Shown: positions 7,224-63,699 of the stretch, one piece after another
Layout of the letters: every line of letters begins with the position of its first letter
Position numbering within the stretch: position 1 is the first letter of the stretch
Assembly (NCBI GenBank): GCA_012845835.1
Contig: JABAKD010000016.1
Span: 14,435,020 to 14,499,019, forward strand
Reading direction: 5' to 3'
Origin: Undaria pinnatifida
Taxonomy: Eukaryota; Sar; Phaeophyceae; Laminariales; Alariaceae
Length of the DNA: 64,000 nt
The notes under the pieces: model-generated
What the model was told of the DNA's origin: nothing
What the model saw: the letters and a program-made list of their open reading frames with translations, nothing else
Database searches by the model: none
Made by a program: the position numbers and the translations under genes

Positions 7224-7634
7224 GTTTTTTTTTTACGGCTGCCTTCTTACGGCGCCGGAGCTTTGCCAGATTCCAACAATATGCGCCCCCCAGGTCGACA
7301 ATCAGCAGCAATAGATGTTCACCCAAGGTGGTTGCCAGGGCATCACCCAACCTCGTACGCCTCTCTTGTCACTGCTTCCCCGAGATGAAATGATGTGACG
7401 GAGAAAAGGCATGGAAAAACCAGAAAAAAACGTCGTGAAAAACGAGACCCTTTCTAAGATCCCATCTCCCTACCTATAACACGCCTCTGCAAGATTTGAA
7501 CTCCATCCAAGCATCAAAGCTTTTTTGTTCCCGCGAGAGGAGCTGAGGAGCTTGTAGATTTGGCCAGCGAACTCCGAAGTGTGGTTGTGGATTACCTACT
7601 GCAGAGACAGATTGTGCGTGCAAGAGTACCAGGA
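7224..7634. promoter_or_regulatory. Divergent promoter interval between Genes A and B
   Basis: About 410 bp separates the two opposed start codons. It is less repetitive than its surroundings and holds no supported frame. No TATA box is clear, so a shared bidirectional promoter is inferred from layout only. Confidence 0.45.
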
Positions 7635-16600: not shown

Positions 16601-19337
16601 ACGACTTGCTGTGTAAGTTAGGATACCGTTGCCCTTTCGAGCACGCCTAACGTCGTTGCCTTGTGCATTTGTATAGTCTACTGGTACACTACAGCTATCC
16701 TCCGGCGGTACGTACGCTGTATCTGAATACTCCTCAAGCTTGATGCCGTCACCTCAAAGTACACCCCTCTTTTAAGTGTTAACAGCTTGCCCTTCTGCTC
16801 TTCTATGGTATCACTTCAATCCTCACAGCAGCAGCTGATAGGTTCTACCAGTCTGTTACCACACCATCTTTCCCTAGTCTTGACGGGTGGGTGCTTTGCA
16901 TGCCCCATACCCATGATTGCGCCCTTCTTTCTCTCCTTGGGGGCATTCCTAACCAGCACAACAAATGTCGGTCGGGAATCGTGACAAAAGAAAAGTTGAC
17001 ATTTTCGCACCTTCGCGAACCGTAACATTGGTCAGGCATCCTGAGTTGAAATACTTTCGAAAACATCGGTAAACAACTGATATCAGGATTTCTGACAAGA
17101 TAACGTGATTTTGTTTTGGGAAAAAACGCGGCTGTTCACAATTTCAACTTAGGGTTAGGAATCGTGATTTTGTGCGTTCGTTAGAAACGACTCTTAGTAT
17201 AATGCAACTCCACCCACAGCTCGCTCTGTCCATTGAAGGTATCTCCCATCCTTTGCTCGGCCACACCTCCTATTTCAACAATCAGCATACGTCCTCTATC
17301 CCCTACCCAATCTCGCCTCCACTAGAATTGTATTCCCTCTCCCCTATCCAATCGCGCCTATTATATTAAGATGCGACACATGGTCCTCTATACTGTCGCC
17401 CCGGTGGCGTGTCAGGTTATCCTCGAGCCTGGTATAGGTCGGTTTCGCGAGTTCGAGCACCCCCGAGTGCATGCTCGTATAAATTCGTAGGGACTTTTTC
17501 TTGTGCACAAATTGACTTGCGGAAAGCGCGAGAGCATGAGTTAGCAACACTCGATGAAACATCGACGAGCAGTGGGATTGCTGAACCCTATGCGCGGTAA
17601 AAATTGAAGGCAAGAACCGAGGAGCAGAAAGGACGACACCTGTGACAACGGCTTGTCCAGACGCTGGAAAGTAGAAGTGTGAAAGAAAAAAAAAATCCCC
17701 CATCCGATCACGCCTCCTAATTTTTCATGCAATCATTGCGTCCCCTATCCCCTACCAATTTTTGCCTCCTATAGTTTCATTCGATCATTGCGTCCCCTGT
17801 CCCAATACCCAATCACGCCTCCTAATTTTTCATGCAATCATTGCGTCCCCTATCCCCTATACCCAATGATGCCTCCTATATGATGCCTTCTACATTTACG
17901 TTCAATATATCGCTTCAATAGCTCCATTTTACTTCGTTCAACTTTCGACAGAAACCTCAGCCTCCATCGTGAAGTTAGCAGCCGAAGGGTTTTCCTTTTC
18001 CCCCCGCCCACTGTCTCACTGTCTCATATTCATGCATGCTCCTGGTCTGTACCATTTCACCGCATCACTACAGCACAGTATCAACGTTATAGCGTACTCT
18101 CAGCAGTACTTTCAGCAGTACTCTCAGCCGTACCCGTGAGTTGCTGCAGAGTTTCGCTGTATCATTCGAAGGTCGTGCGGACGAAACGTGATGGTGTTAC
18201 GATGTTATCATCTTCGCTCATACCAGGTTATCGTATCACGTATCGTTATCATATCTGTTGTGCATATTATATTTGGTCACATGTTGAAATGTACCAAAGG
18301 TATGTTATCATGTTGAACGACTGCTGTATTGCCAGCAGGTATGTACGAGTTTCAAGAGCCGGCCCCTTGTGCACTATTTTCGTTAGTCTAAACGCCGTAC
18401 AGACATACCAGGTGTATCTTGAGACATACCAGGTGTATCTTGAGACATACCAGGTGTATCTTGAGACATACCAGGTGTATCTTCTTGTGAGTACCTGGTA
18501 CGTATGACGGCAGTATGACAGCAGCACCACGTCGGTATCACCCGAATTTGTCCGTGTACCATTCTGTGCTCGTAGCATAAGCATTATAAAGTGCAATAAC
18601 TTTTGGCGAGGGACCACAGCGATTCGAACCCACGATTAACACAAAAATCTGCATATTCCCGTGTTTTTTGTAACCTTTTGGTTCTGACTGCTACATACCA
18701 GACCCCGTAAATACTAAATGGAATGTGTGCGATAGCGACCCATTCTATTAATAGCAGTATGCCCGGTACATAACAGAGTTGCGGCATGCCTGTCACATGA
18801 TAACCTTCGTAGGGAGTTATTCTTGCTTGCGCATAAATTGACTTGCGGAAAGCGCGAGAGCGTAAGTTAGCAACAACACTCGATGAAAAATGGCCTAGCA
18901 GTGGGATTGCTGAATGAACCCTATGCATGATGCGCGATACAAATTGAAGGCAAGAACGGGGGGGAAGGGACGGCACCCGTGACCACGGCTTGTCCAGAAG
19001 CTGGAAAGTAGAAGACTTCAAGTGTCAAAATAAAATAGAATAAAAAATAGGGGCATGTACGCTGTAAGCTGTATGCTATATTGACGGCCCTCTCCTAAGA
19101 AAGAGTTCCAGGACAAAAAACGTAATGCGATAATGACGGGAATCTGGAAATATGCAGAATAAGAAATTCGACAGGTATTAATAGTACTAATAATACTACT
19201 ATTAATAGCAGTATTAATACTATTAATACTATTAATACTATTAACAATAGTATTTACAGCAGTAGTATTGATACTATGCTCAATACTCAGGCTATTGTAG
19301 GACACACCCACCCTTTCTCAACTAACGAGAACTAACC

Positions 19338-29012: not shown

Positions 29013-29416
29013 CCACTGCATCGTTTCTTTCTACCCAACGTCGTCAGTAGAAGAAGACGACAGGGAGATGAATATCTCCACGAAATGCCTATAGAATCTC
29101 TACCCCGTCACCTGTTGATGGGATTTCCGGTCTAACGGCGCTATGTTTGGAGGATTTAAGGCAAATTCTGAGGCTCCAAACAGTCCTTAAGGCACCCGGT
29201 TTTGGAAAAGGGCACATCTCAAGGCATGCCTTAAAGGCAAAACCGCGGCCACCGCAAAAGTAACCCAACAAAGAACACAGAACTTAGTTTTAATTTATAA
29301 GTTGGTTTACATGTATGGGACACGAACAAGCGGCGCAACCAAGTACGGTACGGTAGGTAGCAAAAGTTCAAGTAGTGGTCAAAACCACTTGTACCGATTT
29401 TTTTTCAAAACATCCT

Positions 29417-29735
29417 TTTTTTTTTTTTTTTTTGCACACTTCTACTTTCCAGCTTCTGGATTCTGGACGAGCCGTGGTCACAGGTATCGTCCCTTCTTCC
29501 CCCCGGTTCTTGCCTTAAATTTTTATCGCGCATAGGGTTCAGCAATCCCACTGCTCGTCGAATTTCCATCGAGTGTTACTAACTCACGCTCTCGCGTTTT
29601 CCGCAAGTCAATTTGTGCGCAAGAAAAAGTCCCCACGAATTTATACGCGTATGCACTCGGGGGGATTCGAACTCACGAAACTGACCTATACCAGGCTCGA
29701 GGATAACCTGATACGTTACCGGGGCGACCGGTTAC
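29417..29735 (-). mobile_element. tRNA-derived SINE, full-length minus copy
   Basis: A T-run at 29417-29437 (the A tail on the minus strand) is followed in reverse order by the SINE body and a tRNA-like head with a B-box, GTTCGAATCCCC on the minus strand near 29666, ending at ACCGGGGCGACCGG near 29719-29732. It is the best B-box of the four copies. Confidence 0.75.
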
Positions 29736-34485: not shown

Positions 34486-37400
34486 CTGCAAGATAAGCGC
34501 GAGGGGCGTGGGGGGGGGGAGGTACGGACGTGTGTGTGGGGGGGGTTGTATCCAGAGTGCGTGGTCATATTGCGTGCAAGTGTCCCCCTCGGGAAGGAAT
34601 GTGGTTGTGGTTGGCTCGGGATGGGATGTGGTTGGCTTCAAGTCTCGGGGGTGTCGAAAGTCGAAACGGGGGAATGCCGGCGTCCCCATGTATGAGCCTC
34701 GCATACCAGGTGTAACATAAAGAAGTTATTGAAATATTAGAGGAAAACATAATTAGCCACTTCGCACCGCGTAAGCAACCGGGCAAGCAAGCAACACCCA
34801 CTATTCACATAGTATTGCTAGCTAAAACGAGTTGAGTTTAGTGCACCTCGTACCTTGATAACTTGATAACTGTATTGTTGTTGCCTTCGTACACAAGTCC
34901 AGGATAACCAGAGTTGCGCATGGTACTCGTTTCGTATGAGGTTGAAAAGACGGTCTGCGTACGAGAGACTTTCGTCATGAAACATACACCACGCGATATT
35001 TATACCTACCAGGTATCTCACTCGTACAATAGTTGTGTGGGAAACACGTTGTATGGGACGAGTGAATTGGACGACATGTCGCCGTTCCGTCCAAGGCACG
35101 TCTCTTCACTCTCCAATAAGCGTGACATGAAGATATCGCTGCCGGTACCATGTTTGCAACTGTCGTCAAGGTGCGTGCATTGCTCGACAACTTGGATAAG
35201 GGTGTATACCGTAGATTAATCTCCCGCTGGCGGACAACAAAAAAACAAGGGCTTTAGCGGGTGATGCATGAACTGTCATGCATCACCCGGCCCGCGGGTC
35301 GGATTAGGAGGTATTCCAAACACCCGCGGGTCGATTCGGGTCGTGTTAGGAAGTGTTGTAAATGTCACGGGACGGGACGGATCGGGTCGAGTCGGGTCGT
35401 GTTAGGAGGTTTTCAAACGTCACGGGTCGGGCCGGGTCACCTTGACACGATTCGATTCGCGATAAGGAATCTGACCAATGGAAAGCCAAACAAAAAAACA
35501 GGCTTTAGGCAGCTCGAAAGGGGTTTCCGGTCCATTTGGGCGATGCGTAATGTTGAAACTAGTATCTGATCGTAACAAAAACCAACCACCCTGTTTACCG
35601 TGCAAGGCAAACGGTTTTTACCTCCGCCTCCTTCTCGCAGGCCTCGTCGAGATATCGCTCCTGCAGGCAGTCCTCCGAGCACTGCGTCCACACCTCTTGC
35701 TCAATCAAGCAATACGTCTCCGGAATCTCCGTCATGTCCACCACTGGTGGTCCATTCTTGTCGTCACCCTCACCTCCCTTCCCCTGCTCCACCACCGCAT
35801 CCACGGAAGGATTGGGAGCTCCTGCAGGGCATTCTTTTTTACATTTTCGTCGCTCTTCCTCCATTTCTTCAGGACACACCCGACCCAGCCCTTTCGCGTG
35901 AGTTACGACCACGTCCACCCACGTCTGTGTTCCCACAGAGAGAGTATAGGACAAGGCAGGGTAGGAGAGGAGGGAAAAGGAGAAAATAGGATAGGACAAG
36001 ACAAGACAAGACAGGACAAGACAGGACAAGACAGGACAAGACAGGACAAGACAGGACAAGACAGGACAAGACAGGACAAGACAGGACAAGACAGGACAAG
36101 ACAGGGTTAGGGTTAGCAGGCGTTGTGAACGTTGGGGTCTGACCAGTATACAAAACCGCACCAAATTTCAAGTTACAGATACTTCATCTTCGACTATTAA
36201 TACTATGTTTGACTCCCTCCGCGTAACGGGAAAAAAACAACGCCTGAAATACATACACATCTCGTGCTCACCTCGTAGCCCTGCAGCGTTTGCGGACACT
36301 TTCGTCGCTACAGTTTACAAATGTACACAAAATCGCTTCAAACTACAGACGCATATCATTCTATGTAACTAATAATATCTTCAAGTTTTCTCGTTCCCGT
36401 GCCAAAGAAACGCCCCAATAATAGACTAAACCCAAAATTGCAGGGCTATTCTAACTATTCTAACTATTACTAGTATTACTAGTATTACTAGTATTATTAG
36501 TAATAGTCCGTGTTACTTGTCGGGATAGTTGCACGGTGGCTGATTTTTATTCTTTGGTTTTGAAGAGTCCCCCCCCCCCCTTCCAACATGGGACCCCCCG
36601 GGACTTCAACTTCAACCCAACCACATCCCGAAGTGGAACCTTGTACCTTGTACTGTGCATGGTAATTATACACCGTAATTATACATAGCAATTATACATG
36701 GTAATTATACATGGTAATTATACATGGTAATTATACATGGTAATTATTCATGGTAATTATACATGGTAATTATACACGGTAATTATACATGGTAATTATA
36801 CATGGTAATTATACACGGTAATTATACATAGCAATTATACATGGTAATTATACATGGTAATTATACATGGTAATTATACATGGTAATTATTCATGGTAAT
36901 TATACATGGTAATTATACACGGTAATTATACATGGTAATTATACATGGTAATTATACATGGTAATTATACATGGTAATTATACATGGTAATTATACATGG
37001 TGCTCACTTCTTCGCCCACGATCGTCTGCGGAGTGTGCGCACCAAGCAAACATTTGGCATCGCATTGCTTCACCATTTCCTTAGCAGTTACGCAGTCCAC
37101 GTTTTCTTGGCCGGACGGGCCCTGTACAGACAAGGAAGGCTTTTTGGTCTGGTATAGGGCAGAGGGAACAAGGAACACGTGAGAGGAACAAAATGCGGCG
37201 AGATAAGCGCGGGTGTGCTGCGACAAGCTTTGACCCATTAAAGTCGCGTTTTGGGCCGAATCTTTGGGTGTGGCAGGGGTGACAGGGAATACAGACAAAA
37301 TGCTGTGAGATCGACATGGGTGTTCGATAAGGAAGGCTGTTTCTTCTGGAAAGGCAAGAGGAAACACGGAGTAGTCGACACAGGAATAAGTGCGACGATA

Positions 37401-40400
37401 AAAACGTGGGTCTTCGGTATGCTTCGACCCATCTTTTCTTCTGGCGCGGCCGAGGGGAAAACAGGACATACCTGGTACACATATCCGAGGAGAAACGCGG
37501 CGAGATAAAGACGGGTGTTTGTTATGCGTTGGCCCACTAAGCTAGCATTGTTAGGCCGTTTCGTCTGGTAAGGGAGAGGGGACATGCGGACACAGGACAT
37601 GGGGACACAAACAAGGCGACATCGATGTAGGTGTTTCGTGGCGCGTCCGCAGGATTCATAAACCACACCGCATATCGTACCCGCTCCTCATCAGAACAAC
37701 ACGTCACACCACCCTGTACCCTATCCATGTTATACCCGCACTTCATCGCAACAGCACGGTACCATACACCACTTGTCTCCATAAGACACATATTCCGCAC
37801 CCCATCGCAACACGTTACCAGCACAGCACTATTTATACTATTAATACTATATGCCGGGTTGCGGTCGCGCCATGCGATTTCATCGGCACTTTAAAGAGGA
37901 GTGGTTATCACGTTATCACGTCATCACTATTGGGAGTAGTTAGCACAGTTATATATCGCATACAGGGTACAGGGTTCGTTCTTGCCCGGGATGTTATTAG
38001 ACCACCACACAGCTCCGGGGTCCAGTCCTAACTAGTTTTACTACACCACCACTGTATGCGTAACCGCATAGCACACATGACCCCCCCCCCCCCCCCCCGC
38101 AGTTATATATCGCATACAGGGTACAGGGTTCGTTCTTGCCCGGGATGTTATTAGACCACCACACAGCTCCGGGGTCCAGTCCTAACTAGTTCTACTACAC
38201 CACCACTGTATGCGTAACCGCATAGCACACATGACCCCCCCCCCCCCCCCCCCGCGGACCGCCTTTCGAGCTGATCTCCTCGGGAGCACTGTATGCCTAA
38301 ACCGGATAGCGCGCAGACAACACATTCCTGTAGGCGGGCGTTCCATGCTTAATTTTTCGGCGACGGGCGAAGCGTCTATATAATTTTTGCGATGAGATCT
38401 CCCCGCGGCTAGGATTTTGGAAGTGCGTGCGTCTCTCGTTCTCTTTTGTTTCCTTTTTTGTTTTTCGAGAAAATTTCCTCCGAACTTTAGCCCAGGATGC
38501 AGGTTATCTTTGGTGTAACATGGTAATCATACATCATATATATATCATACATCATCAGATCATCAGATCATCACCGCCTGCCCCCGAGGGAAAAGCCAAG
38601 GCGTCGGCGACGTGCGGTATTTGATATCCTTACCTCATCACCGCCTACCCTCGAGGGAAATTCAAAGGCGCTGGCGATGTACAGTAATACCATATCCTTC
38701 CCTTATCACCGCCTATACCCGATGGGAAATCCAGGGCGTCGGCGACGCACGGTAATACCATATCCTTACCTCATCACCGCCTACCCCCGAGGGGAAATCC
38801 AAGGCGTCGGCGTTGTAGCCGCACACCATTTGTACGCAAAGTATCCGTATTGATATCTACTACACAGATCCAGTCAAACATACTACAACGTCAGGCATAG
38901 GATCTACTGTAGACCATCTAGATCGTGATCTGTCCGATGTGTGATAAAACATAAATATCATACAATTCCTCAACAGAATAGGGCTGGCCCCTCCGCCCCA
39001 ATGGCGGACGGGCCATAATTTGGACCCACAGTAAAACAAGATGTGTATGACATGTGTGCGGTAGTCGGTATGTTTGCGGCTTGGTTGTTGTGCAGTTAGC
39101 TGCATACTGCTTGCACTAAACCATAAACACACGCAATGCAATCTCTGCCGCAGCAGCTACTGCTATGAGAAAGAGTTTTCCGTCGAAAGTAATCTATGCA
39201 AGCCGCGTGTGGTATCACGCCGCATACGTCCACATGAAAACTTTCTACAAATGACCAGACAACTGTACGCTTCATTCAAGGGAAACAGCCATAGGATAGC
39301 GTTTTCTTTGCCCATGGGCGAGCGCCGGTATCGTACTGAGTGCCGTGCTGTTGTACGTACACATCCTTGCCGTGGCAGCATTCTCAAGCAATAGGATCAC
39401 CGAAATAGTGCTGGTTGTAATTATTGATAGTAAGAGTACATACATACACCAGAATTGCTGGACGTTCACAGAGATGCATAGCTTCAAAACGGGAATCTTT
39501 GTATACAACTTGTAATAACGCGATAGTATATCAGCGCTCGGCACTTCAGACACCAATGACTCTAGTACCGTAAGGCCCTCGCCCGCGCGTTAGTCCACAC
39601 CTGGTACGTATTGGTATTGCGCAGTGTGGAATCTGTACTCCTTTCACGACGATTGGTACACCAGAACTGGCAGTGCAGCGAGGTGGTTCTACAGACACAC
39701 GACGCTCTGCACAGCCTACAGCGCAGAACAGAGGTCAAGCGCGCTCTCGACGCATTTGGTCTTTCAGCCATCTTGTGAATGCCACGCAGCAGGAAATATC
39801 GAGCATGTGCCTACATCAATACATACATCGTTGTTGCTTGGTGCATGGCCGCACCTGCTATGATACTGTACAACTGCTGCATACATGAAACCTCGTACAT
39901 AACATCTGACATGACACATACCAATGATCTCCGCGCATCTTGGTCGCACACAGCAGTGTAGCTTCCGGAAGGCCTTTCTACTGGAAATAAAAAAGTTGAT
40001 TATTTGTTCGACAGAAAAATAAACTGGACATTGTATACAACTGATACGCATCTCCAAAACTCCGTAGACAATAGAAATATGGAAAAGCCCGGAAGGACAT
40101 AGGAAGACACGCGTGATCGTCGTCGATACGGTCGACAGAGTCGATACAGTCGACGCCCACACAATGAAGGCTACAGTAGCACAGATCTTGTTGCTTGTAG
40201 TGCCCTATGTTGCTCTCGCACGAGGTGTTCAAATGCACATTGAACCCAAGGTACAGCCATCCAAAAAACCGTTCACAATTTTTCGAAAAACACAAGCTAT
40301 ACATAGTTAAGTTATCCTTACCTCATCTCCGCCTGCCCCCGTGGGCAAACCCAAGGCGTCTGCGTTGTACTCGCACACGCCGTCTGCGAAGCCCACGAGG

Positions 40401-43400
40401 TGCCTGTCGTAGTCGAAGACCACGTTGTGGTCTCGCATGACATTCGCACCGAGCACGCCCCCCATCGACTCTGTCAGGTAGATCCTGTTCACAGTTTACG
40501 CCACCAAACATATATACATAGCAGGTAGCACTTAGTACTACTGTAGGTAGCCCTTGATACTAACACTATTACTAACACTATTACTAACACTATTACTAAC
40601 ACTATTACTAACACTATTACTAACACTATTACTAACACTATTACTAACACTATTACTAACACTATTACTAACACTATTACTAACACTATTACTAACACTA
40701 TTACTAACACTATTACTAACACTATTACTAACACTATTACTAACACTATTACTAACACTATTACTAACACTATTACTAACACTATTACTAACACTATTAC
40801 TAACACTAATACTATTACTAGTGTAGATACTAGATAATACCTACAGTATTAGTATTAGTATTAGTATTAGTAGTAGTACCGTTACAGGTTTCCCCTTCCG
40901 TACGGGATGGGGTTAATCTGATATACTTGATATACTTGATATTATTGATATAGTTGATACACTTTACACAGTTCACAAATATGATATAGTTGATACAGGT
41001 GATATTATTGATACACTTGATATAGTTGATATAGTTGATATAGTTGATACAGTTGACAAAGATGGTAAAGTTGATACACTTGATATAGTTACAGTTGATA
41101 CACTTGACACCGATGATATACGTAGTTGATATAGTTGATATAGTTGATATAGTTGATACAGATGATACATATGATATAGTTGATACAGATGATAGAGTTG
41201 ATACAGATAATATAGTTGATACAGATGATATAGTTGATACAGATGATATAGTTGATACAGATGATATAGTTGATATAGTTGATACAGTTGATACAGTTGA
41301 TACAGTTGATACAGATGATACAGTTGATACAGATGATACAGTTGATACAGATGATACAGTTGATACAGTTGATTTAGTTGATACGCTTGATTTAGTTGAT
41401 ACACATGATATAGTTGATACACATGATATAGTTGATACAGTTGGTATGGTTGATATATATTTGATACATATGATACAGTTAATATAGTTGAAACGCTTGA
41501 TATAGTTGATACACTTGATACAGCAGTTGATACACTTGATACAGCAGTTGATACACTTGATATAGTCGTCGCACTTGACATAGTTGATACAGATGATACA
41601 GGAGTTGATCGAGTTGATCGAGTTGATACAGCAGTTGATCTCCCAAGGGCGTCTGAAGTAAAGAAGGGGGAAGGCAGACGTTCCAATCATATGGACAGAT
41701 TTCAGCCACAGTACTGCTTTTGCTGCGGCCGTATGGTTCGTATACCTGGTATGACGTCCGACGATTAATGTTTGACTCGTGCATTGTACATGTTAATCAT
41801 GCACCAGGTAATGATGTCGTGGTTCGACCTCCTGCTGCTGCGCACCAGCCACACACAGATACCAGGTGCACCGTGGTTGGTGTAAGAAAGGACTAATAGA
41901 CTATTAATAATAGACCCCCATCAGTGGAAGAAGTACCCCACATACACTACATTACATAAACTACATACACTACGTACACTACATACACTACATACACTAC
42001 ATACACTACATACACTAAATACACTACATACACTACATACACTACATGCACTACATACACCACATACACTACATACACTACACTACATGCACTACATGCA
42101 CACCCTGGTACCTGGTACTGCCATTAGTCACTGCCAGCAGCACCATGCAGGATCGCTTGCGTGAACCTTTGAGTCACAAATCTGGGCGCACACGCGTCAT
42201 CCTTCCCCAATGCGCCCATCTACCCTTCAAGCCTCATCTACGATACTACCAGCATCTACAATAATCTACTATGATAATCTACGGTAATATGATAAGAAAG
42301 GAACGACGACGTATCATTAATCACGCGAGTCACACCGTGAACAACCGGGTCACATTTGAGTCACGCACCTGGGGGCATGCGCGTTATCTTTTTTCATCTT
42401 CCATGCGTTAATGCGTCCACCTAAAACTTCAGGCCTCAAAGTGATACTACGAAGATCTACGATAATCTACGGAAATACTAACGCTACCAGCAGGGGCGCC
42501 AAACATCATATTCTTCCAAGTAAACACTTGAATCACACTGCAGTCACGAACCTGGGTGCATACGCGTTGTCCTTCCCCAGTGCGTCCATGTACGCTTCAG
42601 GCCGGACGAGCACTTCCACACCTCCGTCCAAATGAACCGTGATAACCGGCAAAGCCTCCAGATCCGCCGTACTCAGCGTCATGCAAAAATGGTTGTCATT
42701 GCAAGTCTTGTACGGCTGGGGGAGGGAAAGACGGGGGAGAGCAGGGCGAATAAAGCGCACGAGGTTGTAGTTGTAAGCTTTCACCCGTCGGACAGATGAG
42801 ATGATCTATCACACCGATGATCTATCACACACCGATCCCCACAACAAACGATCAAATCTTTCAGGGAAATATGAATGGGCTAGCTCATGTTACTAGGTGG
42901 GAGCCGTAAGACCTGCATGATCTTACGAGTGCATGCGAAATGGGGTGGATCTGTACTCCCACGTACATAGATCCCGCACAACATTTCATAACGGCAGTTA
43001 CAGGATCTACTGCAGATGATCTATATGATCTAGATCGTCATCTATATGATCTATGTGATCGTCGTCTGTCTGAGGTGCGCAAATTTTGTACCGCTGCAGA
43101 AGGGGAAAGCGGCGTGGATCGGACAGCACCGTAGACACGTCGAAAGTTCATCACACTACGGCATCATGCAGATAGCGTTGTCATTGCAAATCTCAAGTCT
43201 TGTACGGCTGGCTGGGGGAGGAGGAGGTGGGGGAGGGCGGGGCAGCTCGCGTTGGCAGATAGTATCATTGCAGGACCTAGCGCTTGGCTCGGGAGTGAGG
43301 TTATCATTGCAATGCCACTCATGTCCTCAGCGAGAAACGCAGTCTACTGCAGAAAGGAGTGTCATTGCAATGGCTTTTACGGCAGCGAGAGGGGAAGGTG

Positions 43401-46400
43401 GAGACGGGCGGAGCACACACGGGCACGATGTTTTATCATCGTAAATTTAGGGCCAAGGGCTAATAATAAGAGCACAACTATAAATAAATATGCTGTGCTA
43501 AAAACCATGAACGTAACGAGTATTCTCATTGTCCTCATTGTCCTCAGCGAGAAACGCAACGCCATGCAGAAACGATTGTCACAGAAAATTTCATCATACT
43601 ATTATAAATACGTCAGCTGTGAGTTCGATACATTCAATGGTAGATACTCATCTTTGCAAACTGCGTGATACACCGGCCGCTCATTTGGACAGGTGTATTA
43701 CTGTAGTCTGTAGTATTCAACATATGTGATTCCCATGGATGTCAGGGAAAGCACTAAAAGAGACACTAAAAGAGACACTAAAAGAGACACTAAAAGACAG
43801 AACATCAACAACCAAATTTTGATCAAAAATAAGAATGGTACCAAGTATATATAGCACCTATACGTACTAGTACTGTAGTTCGTCCCAAGGTAACTTGCTA
43901 TGATTCCTACTTCCGAGTACATGTTTTGTACGGCTGAAGAAAGGGAAGGAGGACGAGGGAGGGCGGCGCGCACGCAGGCACGCGGAAAGTGGCGGACGGC
44001 AGGAATTACGGGGAAGGGTGGACGGTGGACGGGGGAGCGTACATGGTAATGCGGCAAGTGACCGCCGTGGTGCACGTTGAAAGTCACACTGTCTGAAGCG
44101 GCTGATTCTACCTGCCATCTCTAGCCAACTTCCATACTGAGTTCTTGCCGAAAAACGCAAACCACGCCGATGTGGCGGCACAAGCAGTACTCACATGATA
44201 ACACGGAATTGTAATATTTCACCGACCCCGTGATCGCCTCCTTAGCCTTACAGACCCCTTTGGCGACGGACCTGGGCAGATAGGTGTCCGTAGTCCCGCT
44301 GTCCACGGTAACAGTGGTGCTGCTATCCTTAGTACCCGGGTATGTAAACAATCCGCTTGAGAAGTAATGATGTGCATGAGGTTCCGTCTCATTTATTACT
44401 GTAGTATTAATAGCTAGTGGCTGTTGATAGCTAGTGGCTACTAATAATAGCACTGCTTCACGCCGCTACTAACGAGCCGCTTGACAAAATCGAACTTCTT
44501 GTGTTTTGGGTCGACATAAAAACAGCTGATACGAATGCCCCCAAAAGACATGCTAGGACTGGAAGCCGCGTTTTTTTCTCACCGATCCAGTAACCGACTC
44601 CCACGCCTTGCTGAAGCCTTTCGCGACGGACTTCGGCAGGTAGGTGTCCGTAGTGCCGCTGTCGACGATGATGCCCTTCCCCTTCTGGTACACCGTCGGG
44701 TCGCTCTCAATGCTGATCCCGTTCAACGTGATGTCCAGCACCTGCATCCAGACCAGGGTTCCACACAAAACGCGCAATAAGCGGGGGTTTGATTTGACTG
44801 CCACAAAAATGCGCAAGACGTCCAAAAAAATTACAATACCGAAAAAACGCGGGTCGTTCTCCTTGCTTTCCCCGTTGAGTGCGACGCCCAGCACATTTAA
44901 CCCAGCGGGTGGAAGCAGGTTTACACAAAAACGCACTACCTGGTATGTGTGAAGAGATAAACTATCAATATTAATGGACAGCATTGGGGGTCCCCGTATA
45001 AAATGCAGGTCGAATAGTGCCTACTGCCGATATAGTGCCCGTCAAATCGCTTGAATAGTGCCTACTGCCGATGAAGTGCCGGTAAAATCGCTTGAATAGT
45101 GCCTACTGCCGATGTAGAGCCGGTAAAATCGCTTGAATAGTGCCTACTGCCGATGTAGTGCCGGTAAAATTGCTTGAATAGTGCCCACTGCCGATATAGT
45201 GCCGGTAAAATCGCTTGAATAGTGCCTACTGCCGATATAGTGCCGGTAAAATTGCTTGGAACGATTGGAACCCGCTATACTAGTGTTATGCCAGTATCGG
45301 AACTGTACCCAATAGTGCTGATGTCCTCTATGCTGCCGGGATTGGGTTGCTGGCATATGCCGGCACCATAGGGAGATAGATCACTGCTGAACACGTGAAA
45401 AAAAAGACTAGACTACAGCGGGGTTACCCGGTTTTAAAAGCGGCCACAAATAGAGAAAACTAGGGCTGGGTACTGGCGCTGCGCGCCAGTACAAGTTATA
45501 CTGGCTGCTGACGCAGCCAGTATACTGGATCCGGTCAGTATACTGGTGGCGCGGCGAAGCCGCGCGGTCGCGGCGCAGCCGCGACCATCGGCCCCCCCCG
45601 GCTGGTGAGGGGGCCTCGCCGGAGGCGCCCCCGGAGGGCCCCGCTGGAGGCGCCCCGCCGGAGGCGAATTTTTACGCGATTTGGCTTCACTAGAGCATAA
45701 AAAATGAGTGATTTTGGCTCATATGACAGAGGCACTTTTGTGGGGAAAACGGCACTAAAATTCGAGTTCAACGCCCAAATATGTACCGATTTTCAACATG
45801 GAGGATGTGTAGAATGTAGCACAAATCTTTAACTTTGCAACGCCCATATACTCCATGATCATGGGTGACGTAGCGTATGCATAAGCATGAATTGGAATGG
45901 ATAGCACTCATTCCATGTCACACATACTCAACCCAGCGTATATTGGAAAAAAAGTAGATTGATAGCTATAGATTGACAAGAGTACTAAAGACGACGGCAA
46001 GCAACCAAGTCGATCACCATCATCAGTCCATCAGTTGATGTGCCTACGAACAGCGGTGCAACGGTAGCAACAGAGCAACAGAGTACACAACGAGATAACA
46101 ACGGTGCCACAGCTATCGAAAGCTACCTACCCAACCAAAACCTACACCGCGCATAAATCACAGCCGCTAGATACCAGCACAACAAACAGGCAGCCTGAAG
46201 CTATGGGTTTCCGCTGGTTCTTGAGGCGTATATTGGGATCTTCGTCTATATGCGAATGTACTGGTGTACTGGCAGGTCGGTTTACCAGTATCAGGATACT
46301 GCCAGTACTAGTACTACTGGCAGTACGTACTGGTTCAGTACCCAGCCCTAGAGAAAACGGAATTTATGCACAGAGCGATCAACTCGGCTTGTCACATCTT

Positions 46401-59900: not shown

Positions 59901-62679
59901 CGCTCCACCCTGATCCCTGATACCACCCCTCATGATTTTGGGGCTATGCTATCATGGGTTATGTGAGGACGACAAGGTTAGGGTTAGGGATTACCTGGTA
60001 CGTAGGCGATTAGGCGTTTGATCGGGATGGGACCTGGTATCAGGTATGGCAAAATAACCAATGATAGGAGTATCACCTGCACAGCAGTGTTTCTGATGAC
60101 AACAACAGCAGTAGTGGTGCCAATCACCAGGTAGGTTAAAGTCTTTGTTGTTGTTGTTCTCACATTAACTCGCATAATCAAGTCCGTGGTCAAAGGACAG
60201 GCTCCAGTCACTCTGGAGCTGAGGGATACCCCAGGGAAAAACACACACAACCCAAGGTGGTACACGCATATATCAAAGCTGGCGCAATTCATGCCTCCAC
60301 CAGAAATATATAAAAGTGAAATCGGGAGTCAGTCTACAATGTGCCAGGTCCAGGCCGGTGCATACGTCTCACTACTCACGCCTGGAGGAACCAAATATTC
60401 CGATTGCCACCCAAGCAAGACTACCACGTATATATTACACGTAGTATCTATCACTACGCATACGCACGACAGGCATAAGTCAATTAGAGAAAAAGAAACA
60501 AAGGAAAGGAAAGAAGATAAAGGAAAGGAAAGAGAAGAGAAGAAAAACGAAACAAAACGAAAAAGTATAAAAAAGGTTGAGAGTATATGGTGCCTGGTAA
60601 TAAACAATTAATAATTACGTTACGAGTACATTACGAGTACATTACGAGCATGGACATAACGAGTATGAACATTACGGGTACATGACGAGTACATCCGTGT
60701 GTGCCCCCCTGCCCCCTGCCTTGGAAGGAAAAAACATAACGTGGTAACAGGTATATCAAAATTGTCGCAGGGAGGGCGTTATCTTGCGCGCGCTTCACAT
60801 AACGAGTATCAGTAATAATTACTGTGCTATTAACTACTCAGGTCGGCGTATCGGTACTGCTTGTTCTACGCAGTACTGGTACTATTAATAAGCATCGAAT
60901 GCGAACGGTGCTATGATGTAAAAAGTAGTGATTGTTGTGCCAACTCAACCACTTGAGAGTACGAGTATCAGTACTGCTGTCTGTACCCACCCAAGAGTGG
61001 TACGAGTATCATACCGCCGAAACACGGCGGTGTTTACTACCCTGGTATAATATTACATGTATAAAATACCAGGTACACAATAGTGGAAACTACAGTAGTA
61101 AAAAAATTATAAAATAGATTCGTATGATGTAGATCTATAGCTCAAACATTGCCCACCTAAAGTAACCATACAATAGTACCAGCACCAACCATTAGACTAT
61201 AGTGGAGAAAACATATACTCGGAGTATTATAAAATTAAAATACACGCAATTGTGAGATCGAGTATTTTGTCGAAACTCATGTTTGCAAGCTGTGCGTGAT
61301 ACTCCGATCGCGCGTGTTACGGGTTGTGTGTTATAGATGTAGCCTATATTCCGGTCGCCCCGGTGGCGTATCAGGTTATCCTCGAGCCTGGTGTAGGTCA
61401 GTTTCGTGAGTTCGAGCCCCGCCGAGTGCATACTCGTATAAATTCGTTGGGACTTCTTGTGCACAAATTGACTTGCGGAAAGCGCGAGAGCGTGAGTTAG
61501 CAGCACTCGATGAAAAATCGACGAGCAGTGGGATTGCTGAACCCTATGCGCGACAAAAATTGAAGGCGAGAACCGGGGGGAAGAAGGGACGACACCTGTG
61601 ACCACGGCTTGTCCAGAAGCTGGAAAGTAAAAGTGTGAGGAAGAAGAAAAGCAAACAAGTCTACTTTTAAAAAACGAAAGAACAGGACCCGTCCCATTAT
61701 GAAAAAACTCAGTATATTACAAGTACTCGTACCAACAACGCAGCTTGCTCAGATGAGTATTGACCCGGAATTCGACGAACTCACGGCTGACTTTTATAAA
61801 ACACGCGAGCTGTACACAATGACCCCTTGACTGCTGCTGCTGCACTGTATACAGCTACGGAGCTACATGGAGCATAAGTCGGCCTTGCCGCGCGCACGAA
61901 CTGATATATCATACGTACCACAGGGTATATACGAGCTTGCTGGACCGTACGCATTACCAGGTATATGTCACCATGACAATTCACAATAATTTCACCGTTG
62001 TTTCACGGCTCTTCATTTACTGCCGTGTTTAGTTCTTGCTCGCATCGTAGGATAGCTTGGGACCAGCATAAATATCCTGGTTTTAGTACGGGCATGCGAG
62101 AACACCGATTTCAACACACGCGCAAATGATGGTTCCGGCACTGTACCTGAACGAGCCATGACACTGATCGCAGCCAAAGATGTGCGCCGTGCTAGACTTG
62201 CTGTGATCCCAGTACAGGTCCGTATGGCTGCCACAGTTCTTGCACTCAGAGCACGGAAAGGCCGTGTAGTGGCTACCCGTATCAATGATCACAGACACCC
62301 TCTGCGGGGGGGTGCCGACGTAAACGTAGGCAAAGTGGGTTCCCCACCCGGGAAACAAGGGAGTGTCCTCAAAAGACATATACAACGACCGTCGGCCCTG
62401 CCAGGTCCGTCTCGCCAACTTCTTCTCCTCCACCGCTACCGAGAGGGCAGCGTCCGTCGTGTGGTTGTGCCATGCTCGCCCGAGAGCAAGCGAGTAGAGC
62501 TTCGTAGGCGTGCCATCAGCGAGGTCTGGCCCTGGCAGCTCCCTATCGAAGGGCAGAACCGACCCTCCGGGAAGGGGGAAGTACTTGTGATGTTGCGGAT
62601 CGGTGAGCGCCGCCACTGCAGCCCCGGCGGCACAAATCAACGCCACGGACACACCATAAGGCCTAACGATTAACGTCAT
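33670..62679 (-). CDS. Gene C: membrane-anchored pepsin-family aspartic protease, ten exons
   Basis: Ten exons (62147-62679, 59731-59800, 53571-53780, 50315-50452, 44583-44741, 42552-42715, 40322-40484, 37008-37121, 35622-35924, 33670-34485) join in matching phases to an 889-residue protein. Residues 1-23 are a signal peptide and the next ~90 a propeptide-like region. The N lobe has VGTPPQRV and catalytic DTGS at 133. The C lobe has GGYDQRL, DSGTT at 344 and the GANVMRDHNVVFD...VGFAD signature of A1 proteases. Unlike plain pepsins it continues with a Cys-rich stretch (480-640), an ordered luminal domain, one transmembrane helix (about 804-822) and a 67-residue charged Ser-rich tail. It should therefore be a type I secretory-pathway or cell-surface protease. 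Family membership is certain; exon 2 is the weakest exon. About 91% of the gene is intron. Confidence 0.9.
34486..35267 (-). other. Gene C intron 9, 3' part
   Basis: Holds the GGTTCCCCTTCGGG-type repeat at 34585-34795 (GGTTGGCTTCAAGTCTCGGG, ATTAGCCACTTCGCACC, AACCGGGCAAGCA). The rest is unassigned. Confidence 0.5.
35268..35450. repeat. GGGTCGGGTC-rich block
   Basis: Three degenerate units of CGGGTCG.GTTAGGAGGT.TT.CAAACGTCACGGG. Its right end lies about 170 bp from the exon 9 donor. Confidence 0.65.
35622..35924 (-). CDS. Gene C exon 9: Cys-rich extension
   Basis: Acceptor GGGAACACAG, donor GAG|GTAAAA, phase 0/0, 101 codons starting TWVDVVVTHAKGLG. Eight or so cysteines (RKCKKECPAG, YCLIEQEVWTQCSEDC, EACEKE) probably form disulphides. 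It is acidic and lies between the protease core and the final luminal domain. Confidence 0.8.
35990..36117 (+). repeat. 10-bp tandem repeat (GACAAGACAG) ending in TTAGGG
   Basis: About eleven units of ACAAGACAGG, immediately followed by AGGGTTAGGGTTAG. It lies in a Gene C intron, about 65 bp upstream of the exon 9 acceptor. Confidence 0.9.
36575..36660 (-). repeat. GGTTCCCCTTCGGG repeat, reversed copy
   Basis: GGACCCCCCGGGACTTCAA, CAACCACATCCCGAAG and GGAACCTTGTAC read as the reverse of the copy at 11792. Confidence 0.6.
36655..37000 (+). repeat. 13-bp satellite (CATGGTAATTATA) with higher-order repeat
   Basis: About 26 units. Variant units (CACGG, CATAGCA, TTCATGG) recur in the same order about 154 bp apart, showing a higher-order duplication. 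The array ends at the 5' splice site of exon 8, about 7 bp away. Confidence 0.9.
37008..37121 (-). CDS. Gene C exon 8: Cys-rich linker
   Basis: Acceptor CTTGTCTGTACAG, donor GAAGAA|GTGAGC, phase 0/0, 38 codons. It has three cysteines in a short helical-looking segment (KEMVKQCDAKCLLGAHTP). It directly follows the protease domain. Confidence 0.8.
37122..37640 (+). repeat. Degenerate repeats of the exon 8 acceptor side
   Basis: Three to four diverged units of 100-150 bp, each with AAGGAAGGCT(T/G)TTT, TCTGGTA/TCTGGAA, a GAGGG(G)A.ACA stretch and GCGGCGAGATAA, then a GGG.GT.TG..ATGCTT(C)GACCCA block. They continue upstream (in gene direction) from the exon 8 3' splice site. Confidence 0.6.
37850..37905 (+). 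repeat. CGGCACT MITE fragment
   Basis: GCCGGGTTGCGGTCGCGCCA and GCGATTTCATCGGCACTTTA match the 3' half of the 24068 element. Confidence 0.5.
37949..38257 (+). repeat. Tandem duplication, ~151 bp, each ending in poly-C
   Basis: The unit CAGTTATATATCGCATACAG to CATAGCACACATGA plus 16-19 C occurs twice. The two units are almost identical, so the duplication is recent. Confidence 0.9.
38562..38830 (-). repeat. Four copies of the exon 7 3' edge with splice donor
   Basis: Four units of about 66 bp, each matching the last ~45 bp of exon 7 and its GTAAGG donor (plus strand: CCTTACCTCATCACCGCCT..CCC.G.GGG.AAA.CCAAGGCG). The copy nearest the exon (38765-38830) still encodes DALDFPSG.GGDE where the exon encodes DALGLPTGAGGDE. 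They sit about 1.5 kb downstream of exon 7 in the gene direction. Confidence 0.8.
38840..40310 (-). other. Gene C intron 7, unassigned part
   Basis: No exon or clear repeat family seen. Several short frames on both strands overlap and lack splice support. Confidence 0.5.
40322..40484 (-). CDS. Gene C exon 7: C-lobe end of the protease domain
   Basis: Acceptor GTGAACAG, donor GAG|GTAAGG, phase 2 to 0, 54 full codons. It carries MGGVLGANVMRDHNVVFD then RHLVGFAD, the conserved close of A1 proteases. Confidence 0.9.
40552..40812 (+). repeat. 12-bp tandem repeat (ACTATTACTAAC)
   Basis: About 21 near-perfect units beginning about 70 bp upstream of exon 7 in the gene direction. Confidence 0.95.
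40920..41640 (+). repeat. GTTGATA(C/T)A(G/C) repeat array, ~700 bp
   Basis: About 70 degenerate 9-bp words such as GTTGATACA, GATGATATA and CTTGATACA. It leaves long artefactual frames on both strands. Confidence 0.9.
41935..42095 (+). repeat. 10-bp tandem repeat (CATACACTA)
   Basis: About 15 units of ACATACACTAC with minor variants. Confidence 0.9.
42163..42240 (-). repeat. Copy of exon 6 3' edge (distal)
   Basis: Plus-strand GAGTCACAAATCTGGGCGCA, CGTCATCCTTCCCCAATGCG and TACCCTTCAAGCC match the last ~60 bp of exon 6 and the start of its intron. The donor GT has decayed. Confidence 0.7.
42357..42445 (-). repeat. Copy of exon 6 3' edge (proximal)
   Basis: GAGTCACGCACCTGGGGGCA, GCGCGTTATCTT and AATGCGTCCAC.....CTTCAGGCC match exon 6's end. 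The copy has a small insertion, and on the minus strand its donor reads CAG|GTGCGT, closer to consensus than the real one. Confidence 0.7.
42552..42715 (-). CDS. Gene C exon 6: C-lobe core
   Basis: Acceptor CTTTCCCTCCCCCAG, donor CCCAG|GTTCGT, phase 0 to 2, 54 codons starting PYKTCNDNHFC with the PVITVHLDGGVEVLVRP strand typical of A1 C lobes. The weak donor is supported by exact phase match to exon 7 (split Arg). Confidence 0.85.
43070..43420 (-). repeat. Copies of the exon 6 5' edge (acceptor side)
   Basis: The stretch 43163-43240 repeats ATG, GTTGTCATTGCAA, AAGTCTTGTACGGCTGG and GGGGGAGG, i.e. the start of exon 6 with its polypyrimidine tract and AG. Weaker echoes are 43080-43115 (TTTTGTACCGCTGCAGAAGG) and 43350-43420 (TGTCATTGCAATGGC.TTTACGGC). 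Confidence 0.65.
43600..43665 (+). repeat. CAGCTGTG repeat fragment
   Basis: TACGTCAGCTGTGAGTTCGA and ACTCATCTTTGCAAACTG match the family head; the rest is absent. Confidence 0.5.
43744..43800 (+). repeat. 12-bp tandem repeat (ACTAAAAGAGAC)
   Basis: Four units in a Gene C intron. Confidence 0.9.
43912..43985 (-). repeat. Distal copy of the exon 6 acceptor
   Basis: TTTTGTACGGCTGAAGAAAGGGAAGG and GGGAGGGCGG read on the minus strand as a pyrimidine tract, CTTCAG and the first codons of exon 6. Confidence 0.6.
44223..44327 (-). CDS. Open duplicate of exon 5 3' part (possible alternative exon)
   Basis: A diverged copy of the last 35 codons of exon 5: TVDSGTTDTYLPRSVAKG against the exon's IVDSGTTDTYLPKSVAKG, ending ITGS|GTGAAA where the exon ends VTGS|GTGAGA. 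It has no stop. An AAG acceptor at 44328-44330 would make it 105 bp in phase 0/0, so it could replace exon 5 without a frameshift, though it lacks the first 18 codons. It is either an alternative exon or a well-preserved relic. Confidence 0.4.
44583..44741 (-). CDS. Gene C exon 5: second catalytic aspartate
   Basis: Acceptor CTGGTCTGGATGCAG, donor TCG|GTGAGA, phase 0/0, 53 codons. It starts VLDITLNGISIE, the usual strand before the active site, and holds IIVDSGTTDTYLP with catalytic Asp at about residue 344. Confidence 0.9.
44838..44930 (-). repeat. Copy of exon 5 5' edge
   Basis: On the minus strand the frame reads NVLGVALNGESKENDPRF against the exon's QVLDITLNGISIESDPTV. The acceptor AG has decayed. 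It lies just upstream of exon 5. Confidence 0.65.
44990..45400 (+). repeat. 43-bp tandem repeat inside a CCGGCACTAT-type MITE
   Basis: Six units of CGCTTGAATAGTGCCTACTG and CCGAT(A/G)TAGTGCCGGTAAAAT are flanked by GGGGGTCCCCGTATAA at the left and CCGGCACCATAGGGAGA at the right, which match the ends of the 24068 family. A MITE seems to have expanded internally. Confidence 0.75.
45453..46358. mobile_element. Non-autonomous hAT element with 8-bp target duplication
   Basis: The element spans 45461-46350 (890 bp). Its ends are perfect 15-bp inverted repeats, TAGGGCTGGGTACTG, flanked on both sides by GAGAAAAC (45453-45460 and 46351-46358). The 8-bp duplication and TAGGGCTGGG end are hallmarks of the hAT superfamily. 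The interior has GC-rich palindromes near 45545-45670 but no transposase frame. It sits in Gene C intron 4. Confidence 0.9.
46490..46740 (+). repeat. TTTTAGTGTGGA / GACGGCAATTTTCC repeat, second locus
   Basis: Three units as at 27586-27910, ending with TTGACCGCAGGACGTTTTTCCTTGACTGACG like the end of that array. Confidence 0.75.
46850..47812 (-). other. Gene C intron 4, unassigned
   Basis: Contains an AAGGTTCCCCTTCGGGG fragment near 47041. GTGCTCAGCACA and TGTGCTGAGCACAAC form an inverted pair at about 47405 and 47470. No exon seen. Confidence 0.5.
47813..48595. mobile_element. 783-bp inverted-repeat element, copy 1
   Basis: Begins GGCCATTTCTTATACAGTCG and ends with its exact reverse complement, at least 22 bp of perfect terminal inverted repeat. 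Further inward both ends carry many CAGTCGAAAA/TTTTCGACTG words able to form hairpins. The middle is GC-rich. A 181-codon plus frame is present here but broken in the sister copy (57894-58652), so I do not call it a gene. No target duplication is clear. Confidence 0.8.
48600..50145 (-). other. Gene C intron 4, unassigned with one long antisense frame
   Basis: A 246-codon plus frame (49232-49972) lies antisense within the intron. It has no recognisable domain, signal or splice context. An 8-bp GATGTGAC repeat lies at 49187-49222. Confidence 0.4.
50148..50275 (+). repeat. ~35-bp tandem repeat (GGTCCGCCAGCAGGCA)
   Basis: Four degenerate units of (C)CACCAGCAGGCACGAAA... in intron 4, ending about 40 bp from exon 4. 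Confidence 0.75.
50315..50452 (-). CDS. Gene C exon 4: start of C lobe
   Basis: Acceptor GCAATGTTTCAG, donor AAG|GTAAAC, phase 0/0, 46 codons. TFSLCFGLNGGTMVIGGYD and AYTPSTKTSGWFTVK are strongly conserved A1 protease segments between the two lobes. Confidence 0.9.
50770..50880 (+). repeat. 90-bp TTAA element, second intact copy
   Basis: Opens GTTACCCCCTTTAGAGCCCC and closes AGTTGTAAAGGCGTTAAGG; the interior matches 12187-12276 closely (CCTCCCTATACTAAA.CCAAGTA). Confidence 0.75.
51262..51470 (+). repeat. (CAA/CAG)n repeat
   Basis: About 200 bp of mixed CAA and CAG trinucleotides. It gives artefactual poly-Gln, poly-Thr and poly-Asn frames; no splice context supports coding. Confidence 0.9.
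52075..52195 (-). repeat. SINE body fragment
   Basis: ACCTTCTGGACAAGCCGTGG and TCACAGGTG followed by C-rich DNA match the SINE 3' half in reverse; the head is missing. Confidence 0.6.
52870..53060 (+). repeat. AGTAATAT-rich repeat with interstitial (CCCTAA)n
   Basis: AT-rich AGTAATA/TATTAATA words with two and a half perfect CCCTAA units at 52981-52996. Confidence 0.75.
53571..53780 (-). CDS. Gene C exon 3: N-lobe
   Basis: Acceptor TTGCCGTCCAG, donor AAG|GTGCGC, phase 0/0, 70 codons. It starts VEDVLWVGELTLEES and includes FMFGCIESQTGLF and LADGIMGM, the typical A1 segment between the active-site flap and the lobe junction. Confidence 0.9.
53785..54110 (+). repeat. Duplicated intron segment next to exon 3 acceptor
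   Basis: Two diverged units, from (C/G)G.AATGGTACC through repeated GTACCGTA/ACCAGC words to a GCGTAC..G/AGAC, CAGC(A/G)TCGATTG and AGCGAA close. The first includes the exon 3 acceptor region. Confidence 0.6.
54612..54655 (+). repeat. (TATGG)n pentamer
   Basis: About six TATGG units following CGTGCGAG. Confidence 0.85.
54790..55075 (+). repeat. CAGCTGTG repeat, copy 5 (diverged)
   Basis: CACTCCAGCTGTGAGATCGA, CTCCGATCGCGCGT, GGTCGGCGACTCCCCTTA and GAAACTATGAAACCCG are in order. It has an internal insertion near 54960-55015 and no poly-G tail. Confidence 0.7.
55125..55170 (+). repeat. GGGAGGGGTTGAT short tandem repeat
   Basis: Three units of ATGGGAGGGGTTG(AT). Confidence 0.8.
55560..55705 (-). 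repeat. TTTTAGTGTGGA / GACGGCAATTTTCC repeat, reversed copy
   Basis: Reads CCAGCGGTCAAGGGTATCAA, CCTAGTAGTTTG and GGAAAATTGCCGTCGATCAA, the reverse of the units at 27586 and 46490. Confidence 0.75.
55755..55815 (+). repeat. (CCA)n microsatellite
   Basis: About 18 CCA units with two interruptions. Confidence 0.9.
56428..56915 (+). repeat. CAGCTGTG/poly-G repeat, copy 6 with 32-bp G run
   Basis: Complete copy from AATGAAAATACACTCCAGCTG. It has a short internal duplication (AAACCCGTTTC repeated around a TA run) and ends in an uninterrupted run of about 32 G at 56874-56905. Confidence 0.8.
57894..58652. mobile_element. Inverted-repeat element, copy 2 (~759 bp)
   Basis: Begins GACCATTTCTTACACAGTCG and ends CGACAGTATAAGAACTGGCC, with the same interior order as 47813-48595 but many substitutions. 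Stops break the frame that is open in copy 1. It lies in Gene C intron 2. Confidence 0.75.
58655..58775 (+). repeat. GGTAAAAACCGAA palindromic repeat
   Basis: Several AAAAACCGAA(A/C) and TTTCGG words form short inverted and direct repeats next to the element at 57894. Confidence 0.6.
58970..59730 (-). other. Gene C intron 2, unassigned
   Basis: Mostly T-rich on the plus strand (59240-59480, TTTTGTTTTTG words). No exon seen. Confidence 0.5.
59731..59800 (-). CDS. Gene C exon 2: active-site flap region (probable)
   Basis: Acceptor ACGCGACAG, donor GTG|GTAAGC (strong), entering in phase 2 and leaving in phase 0, exactly what exons 1 and 3 require. It encodes SQSLYGETRFVSYTV then a short insert, which lines up with the Tyr-containing flap of A1 proteases. 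The usual Cys and Gly-Ser-Ser of the flap are missing, so another exon could serve here, but phase and content favour this one. Confidence 0.55.
60138..60395 (+). repeat. GTTGTTGTTCTCACATTAAC repeat, copy 1
   Basis: About 250 bp almost identical in order to 63735-64000, including GACAGGCTCCAGTCACTCTG, ATATATAAAAGTGAAATCGG and CGGTGCATACGTCTC. A TATA-like word near its 3' part recurs in both copies. Confidence 0.8.
60610..60690 (+). repeat. ACGAGTACATT tandem repeat
   Basis: About six degenerate 11- to 14-bp units. Confidence 0.8.
61225..61335 (+). repeat. CAGCTGTG repeat, truncated copy
   Basis: Head of the family to GATCGCGCGTGTTACGGGTT, then cut by the SINE starting at about 61350. Confidence 0.65.
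61350..61650 (+). mobile_element. tRNA-derived SINE, full-length copy
   Basis: Head: CCGGTCGCCCCGGTGGCGTA with A-box-like GGCGTATCAGG, and B-box-like GAGTTCGAGCCCC at about 61407. Body as in the other copies, ending GCTTGTCCAGAAGCTGGAAA and an A-rich tail. It appears inserted in a CAGCTGTG repeat, so it is the younger of the two. Confidence 0.8.
62147..62679 (-). CDS. Gene C exon 1: signal peptide, propeptide, first catalytic aspartate
   Basis: The start ATG at 62679 begins a hydrophobic signal sequence (SVALICAAGAAVAAL). A propeptide-like region follows, then a basic RRTWQGRR stretch that may be the cleavage site. The N-lobe strand AYVYVGTPPQRVSVIID and catalytic DTGS (residues 133-136) come next, then the Cys pair FPCSECKNC. 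The donor TTCAG|GTACAG is in phase 2. Confidence 0.9.

Positions 62680-62898: not shown

Positions 62899-63699
<801 letters not shown>

Follow-up and report, generated by a model that had tools for sequence, protein, structure and literature searches.

Intronic copies of exon edges with their splice sites, and local direct duplication, in an aspartic protease gene and kinesin loci of Undaria pinnatifida

An exon edge repeated in a protease intron

In a 64,000-nucleotide stretch of Undaria pinnatifida DNA (the window, located on contig C22 of a 511-Mb genome in 68 contigs), the 3' edge of a coding exon and its splice donor recur in the downstream intron as an array of four copies. How did these copies come to lie there, and does this genome duplicate exon edges by a process dedicated to them? 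The exon belongs to an aspartic protease gene with long introns that runs along the minus strand from ~62.7 to 33.6 kb of the window (62715-33672). Exon 1 matched the Pfam families Asp and TAXi_N, plasmepsin V was the best solved relative by sequence (E 7e-12), and the product looks like a pepsin-type, plasmepsin-V-like protease. The protein also has a hydrophobic stretch at the C-terminal end and a cysteine-rich part with a weak resemblance to TSP1 (E 0.008, which does not reach the curated cut-off). Just upstream of the first exon lay a perfect (TAC)n array (62902-63698, 266 copies, 100% matches), and elsewhere in the window an open frame of 459 residues (5856-7232, minus strand) matched no Pfam family with an E-value of 1 or lower. 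The exon models are predictions from sequence, made by visual inspection of open frames and splice sites; the set used, which omits exon 2 and one exon between E9 and the last exon, included the following.

53780-53571, minus strand: exon 3 (E3), predicted from open frame and splice sites
50452-50315, minus strand: exon 4 (E4), predicted from open frame and splice sites
44741-44583, minus strand: exon 5 (E5), with the second catalytic motif DSGTTDTYLP; donor GT at 44582
42715-42552, minus strand: exon 6 (E6), acceptor CCCCCAG/CCG and donor CCCAG/GTTCGT
40484-40322, minus strand: exon 7 (E7), predicted from sequence and reading frame; its 3' edge is most likely the source sequence of the array
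37121-37008, minus strand: exon 8 (E8), predicted from open frame and splice sites
35924-35622, minus strand: exon 9 (E9), predicted from open frame and splice sites
from 34485, minus strand: last exon, predicted from open frame and splice sites

E7 gave weak Pfam matches to TAXi_C and the Asp C-terminal part (E 0.07 and 0.27, respectively), and on the minus strand it ends in GGAGATGAG, followed directly by the donor GTAAGGATA. A BLASTN comparison of E7 plus flanks with the window defined the source segment and the copies.

40313-40378, minus strand: source segment, comprising 57 bases of the exon and 9 of the intron with the donor GTAAGGATA, matched by BLASTN to 38761-38826
38761-38826, minus strand: c1, the longest copy, 66 bp, 88%, E 7e-19; donor GTAAGG intact; ATGGT on both sides
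38693-38744, minus strand: c2, 52 bp, 77%; donor altered to GGAAGG
38625-38682, minus strand: c3, 58 bp, 79%; donor GTAAGG intact
38568-38609, minus strand: c4, 42 bp, 88%; stops short of the donor

After c1, the array continued for three more units of 67-68 bp each. Tandem Repeats Finder independently reported the same region (38568-38812, period 68, 3.6 copies, 80%), and the head-to-tail arrangement with a unit within 10-100 bp makes the array a minisatellite. The alignment of the E7 edge to the array scored 258, a value reached by none of 200 shuffles (shuffled mean 64.6, sd 9.9), and a reversed-window control with seven exon queries yielded, at E 0.05 or better, only 16 bp of E1. An earlier note on this DNA had expected identity above that of shuffled sequence, which was found, and had described the last ~45 bp of the exon plus donor as recurring four times 1.5 kb downstream with a donor-like sequence and part of the coding frame kept in three of the copies. 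The four recurrences and their position were confirmed, but the copied part of the exon is longer, with 57 bases in c1, and an intact GT donor is kept in c1 and c3 and not in c2 or c4.

When the array was searched as DNA against the 511-Mb genome, two matches were returned, the array itself and E7; this search skips very common words, and its match counts are lower bounds. The E7 protein found itself and a distant paralogue (49% over 39 residues, contig C25), the nearest match to a close paralogue that might have served as donor, a candidate that we rejected. Together, the DNA matches and the distance of the paralogue suggest that E7 is most likely the source of the array and that the event was local. 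The description of the unit as a splice junction, neither exon nor transposon, also held. Copying took in the last 57 of the 163 exon bases, not the whole exon with both splice sites as in a tandem exon duplication, and the genome search returned the array and E7 in place of the many dispersed copies of a transposable element or of an ordinary repeat far from the gene.

Formation of the exon 7 array

The alignment of c1 to E7 took in 8-14 exon bases beyond those matched by c2-c4, and the spacer GGATATGGTATTACC and its variants followed c1, c2, and c3, but were absent from E7. Because the spacer is common to these units and lacking in E7, and because the match of c1 is longer, one copy is likely to have come first and the array later; the simplest order that the sequences suggest would be a single transfer of the E7 edge and then tandem expansion from inside c1.

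The homology between E7 and c1 ended at intron base +9, with an exon identity of 88%. Beyond this point, the intron sequence that follows E7 and the sequence past the array showed no residual similarity (score 420 against a mean of 519 for shuffles, 60 of 60 of which scored at least as much), and neither did the first 400 bases of each (176 of 200 shuffles as high), and a self-comparison of the window (E 1e-5, matches of at least 40 bp) listed no partner for 38840-40305. The duplicated intron that a junction-spanning tandem duplication would leave was, in these comparisons, lacking at E7. Since the intron homology stops at +9 despite the 88% identity, the first 1.5-kb step does not appear to have been a plain tandem duplication, and decay alone is insufficient to account for the missing intron, the exon part being too similar. 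The transfer may have been the copying of a short piece, a tandem duplication that later lost its intron part, or a short tandem array that was split by an insertion. The same intron contains a 154-bp tandem duplication of 99% identity (37946-38252), which indicates that some of the local duplication there is recent.

Edge copies at other exons and the rate of local duplication

Besides E7, the edges of E5 and E6 had copies in the adjoining introns, so that three consecutive exons (E5, E6, and E7) were affected.

44219-44307, minus strand: copy of the E5 3' edge, 85 exon and 4 intron bases, 360 bp downstream, 80%
42337-42405, minus strand: first copy of the E6 3' edge, donor CCCAG/GTGCGT, intron homology extending ~30 bp further
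42172-42233, minus strand: second copy of the E6 3' edge, 82%
43161-43243, minus strand: copy of the E6 5' edge, upstream, with polypyrimidine tract and acceptor
43337-43435, minus strand: more diverged copy of the E6 5' edge, from alignment alone and absent from the window-wide repeat pairs
43079-43112, minus strand: weak similarity to the E6 acceptor, 34 bp, score 32, from alignment alone

In the E5 copy, 11 of the 18 differences fell at third codon positions, as expected with one side constrained. Similar copies had been noted earlier around exons 5, 6, and 8; they are present at E5 (one 3' copy) and at E6 (two 3' copies, with two clear and one weak 5' copies), whereas the duplicate near E8 (37129-37238 vs 37326-37432, 70%) is intronic and ends 7 bases short of that exon. 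Local direct duplicates, defined as lying <3 kb apart with short-period repeats masked, covered 4 of the 15 protease junctions, as compared to 1.1-1.2 expected from shifts over the gene or the window and 1.4 for the 11 junctions in 33.6-46 kb (shift fraction 0.016-0.027), an excess that is biased upward because the gene was picked for its edge copies.

The same analysis was applied to nine kinesin loci of this genome, with 32 of 130 kinesin-domain matches providing 64 edges; the ends of the domain matches served as a proxy for exon edges. Edges in local direct duplicates were found at four loci.

L011: two 5' edges and one 3' edge
L013: one 3' edge
L014: one 3' edge, with three copies
L017: one 5' edge

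A 37-bp pair inside an L011 exon (2599-2634 vs 4786-4822) was not counted as an edge, as it covers 10 of the last 25 bases, and at L016 two of the four matches lie in frames that are both listed with a length of 564 and could belong to one exon. The covered edges numbered 6 of 64 as compared to 6.2 expected by circular shift (fraction of shifts at or above the observed value, 0.61), and at two other thresholds there were 5 vs 5.8 and 7 vs 6.9 expected. Eight of the 32 matches contain a stop, which makes their ends unreliable as exon edges; with these dropped, the 24 stop-free matches gave 6 of 48 edges vs 4.8 expected (shift fraction 0.37, and 0.48 and 0.43 at the other thresholds). Thus, there was no detectable edge preference in the nine kinesin loci, although 64 edges are compatible with a modest enrichment. 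For the kinesin loci and the protease gene together, duplicates covered 10 of 80 edges, 7450 of 69306 intron bases (a figure that includes dispersed repeats happening to sit close together), and 237 of 5339 bases of exon interior. Edges are therefore duplicated at about the intron rate. When extended to other genes in this way, the earlier suggestion of a process that duplicates exon edges was sustained in part: edge copies do occur, and a general process also reaches edges, but targeting of edges was not borne out.

Local duplication was predominantly direct wherever we counted it. Repeat families were 21 direct vs 3 inverted in six 10-kb stretches (all six that were fetched), 25 vs 4 in the nine kinesin loci, and 21 vs 6 in the window, where the repeat pairs numbered 31 direct vs 7 inverted and Tandem Repeats Finder gave 98 rows in 64 kb. 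The window also contains a dispersed element of ~300 bp in both orientations (17395-17692, 29400-29731, and 61351-61674; 87-91% identical). On contig C2, identically scoring kinesin matches lie 29 kb apart (16.034-16.038 and 16.063-16.067 Mb), which suggests that a gene or segment was duplicated recently or that the assembly contains a duplicate.

The copies showed a consistent direction. At 10 of the 10 affected edges among the 80 examined, they lay outward, downstream of 3' edges and upstream of 5' edges; the corresponding 16 of 16 pairs are not independent, and the script was able to record inward copies. The E7 array shares this placement: it is directly oriented and lies outside its exon edge. 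Tandem duplication across the junction, combined with selection on the mRNA, should leave copies in this position. Outward placement is automatic for such a duplication as long as the inner splice site stays in use. A clear, less diverged example is L017 (4573-4896), where a tandem array ends in the 5' edge of a kinesin exon; its units of ~120 bp are ~90% alike and span 50 exon-internal bases, the acceptor, and then intron. The L013 copy (70%) still carries >100 bp of intron, so that the intron is duplicated with the edge at both L017 and L013, and one L014 copy retains ~50 bp. In the other L014 copies, the 3' edge of L011 exon 3 (where homology ends at GTA), and E5, mostly the exon edge and the splice site are left. 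Similarity of exon to copy should outlive that of intron to intron, because the functional exon and its splice site are constrained. Residual intron similarity was clearly positive for the first E6 3' pair alone (1 of 200 shuffles reached the score); it was undetected for E5, two L014 copies, two L011 edges, and the second E6 3' copy (28-193 of 200 shuffles), and the value for the 5' edge of L011 exon 3 (10 of 200) compares with 5 of 100 for one of six unrelated null pairs.

Competing explanations and significance

We consider it probable that the E7 array and the other edge copies are by-products of frequent short local direct duplication that is blind to splice junctions. According to this model, short duplications of the tandem type would occur often and without regard to junctions; where a duplicate spans an exon-intron junction, the exon body would go on using the inner splice site, and the outer edge with its splice site would be stranded in intronic sequence, downstream of the exon for a donor and upstream for an acceptor, where it would decay, presumably as neutral sequence. 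At E7, an edge of 57 exon and 9 intron bases would have come to lie in the intron at a distance of 1.5 kb, and this copy may then have grown into the four-unit, 67-68-bp minisatellite by internal replication slippage or unequal crossing-over. The older copies elsewhere would likewise be of tandem origin. Against the model stand the stop of E7 homology at +9, the want of residual intron in most older copies, the ATGGT repeat, and the mild edge enrichment in the protease gene.

Alternatively, the 66-bp E7 edge with its donor may have been inserted 1.5 kb away by copy-and-paste, through a repair patch or a templated insertion at a staggered break, and then expanded in tandem. The sharp end of homology at +9 with 88% identity and the lack of intron homology past that base are consistent with such an insertion, as are the similarly short extents at E5 (+4) and at the 3' edge of L011 exon 3. 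ATGGT on either side of c1 could be a 5-bp target duplication, weak evidence alone; by a rough estimate, a 5-bp repeat with loose boundaries has a chance of ~5%. Copy-and-paste should, however, land on either side of the source exon, and the outward placement at 10 of 10 edges would then have a binomial probability of about 1 in 1000. On balance, we think this route rather unlikely.

Tandem exon duplication can give mutually exclusive exons, and the protease copies resemble that situation in that exon-derived sequence is repeated in the adjoining intron, but here one edge alone was copied, and most of the exon is absent along with its other splice site. As a cassette or mutually exclusive exon, c1 would be an 87-bp phase-0 exon and the E5 copy an alternative active-site exon. 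The stretch 38856-38770 is indeed open in phase 0, with AG before and GAG/GTAAGG after, a reading that ruled out our argument that c1 is without any acceptor, and the E5 copy retains the DSGTTDTYLP frame with no stop. Nevertheless, an open 87-bp frame after AG is not rare, c1 has neither the acceptor nor the 5' two thirds of E7, its putative acceptor is not derived from E7 and has a pyrimidine tract that is weak by eye, and 5 of its 7 changed codons are non-synonymous. An exon formed from the E5 copy would probably lose the strand before the catalytic motif. This interpretation is quite improbable, and c1 is probably dead.

A dedicated duplication of exon edges, arising for example from breaks during co-transcriptional splicing, is very doubtful. 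It appeared plausible in the protease gene, given its covered junctions above expectation and three consecutive exons with edge copies, but it was not borne out in the kinesin loci, where enrichment was undetectable, and introns are covered at a similar rate. A dispersed repeat, transposon, or assembly artefact is scarcely credible even in a window so rich in tandem repeats, as the genome search returned the array and E7 as its two matches (a lower bound) and the copies differ from E7 by 12-23%, too much for an assembly echo.

Duplication across an exon-intron boundary is already known, and minisatellites are ordinary. In the potato RdRp gene, a junction-crossing tandem genomic duplication made a new spliced intron that is supported by RNA-seq reads, as described in PMC4974935. 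The likeness to the present case is a local direct duplication over an exon-intron boundary that doubled splice signals and exon edge; the differences are that a new intron resulted there, whereas the copies here appear to have been left inside an existing intron, and that at E7 no duplicated intron was found. The Rogers model, also described in PMC4974935, derives intron gain from a duplicated AGGT-containing exon segment. Exonic sequence with a splice-site motif was likewise duplicated locally within the gene here, but the intron was already present and no new intron boundary is implied. With minisatellites, the array shares head-to-tail 67-68-bp units that are ~80% alike, and it differs from them in having a founding unit that can be identified, an exon 3' edge with its 5' splice site.

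What is added here is a small-sample rate, the outward placement, and the occurrence of edge copies without the need of an edge-specific process. The kinesin test turned an impression from a single locus into a rate and gave no sign that special targeting is needed. An improbable further reading is that fragments of exon edges, 50-90 bp long and including the splice site but no adjoining intron, are copied outward into neighbouring introns by a repair or replication process of this lineage; if true, it would seed introns with decoy splice junctions, some of which, such as the 87-bp phase-0 frame, could be recruited as exons or extensions. At about one edge in ten (10 of 80 examined), part of the coding exon and its splice site is also present in an intron. 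Such copies matter for gene prediction because the decoys resemble exons, and local duplication of this kind could move the boundaries of exons or give rise to alternative ones.
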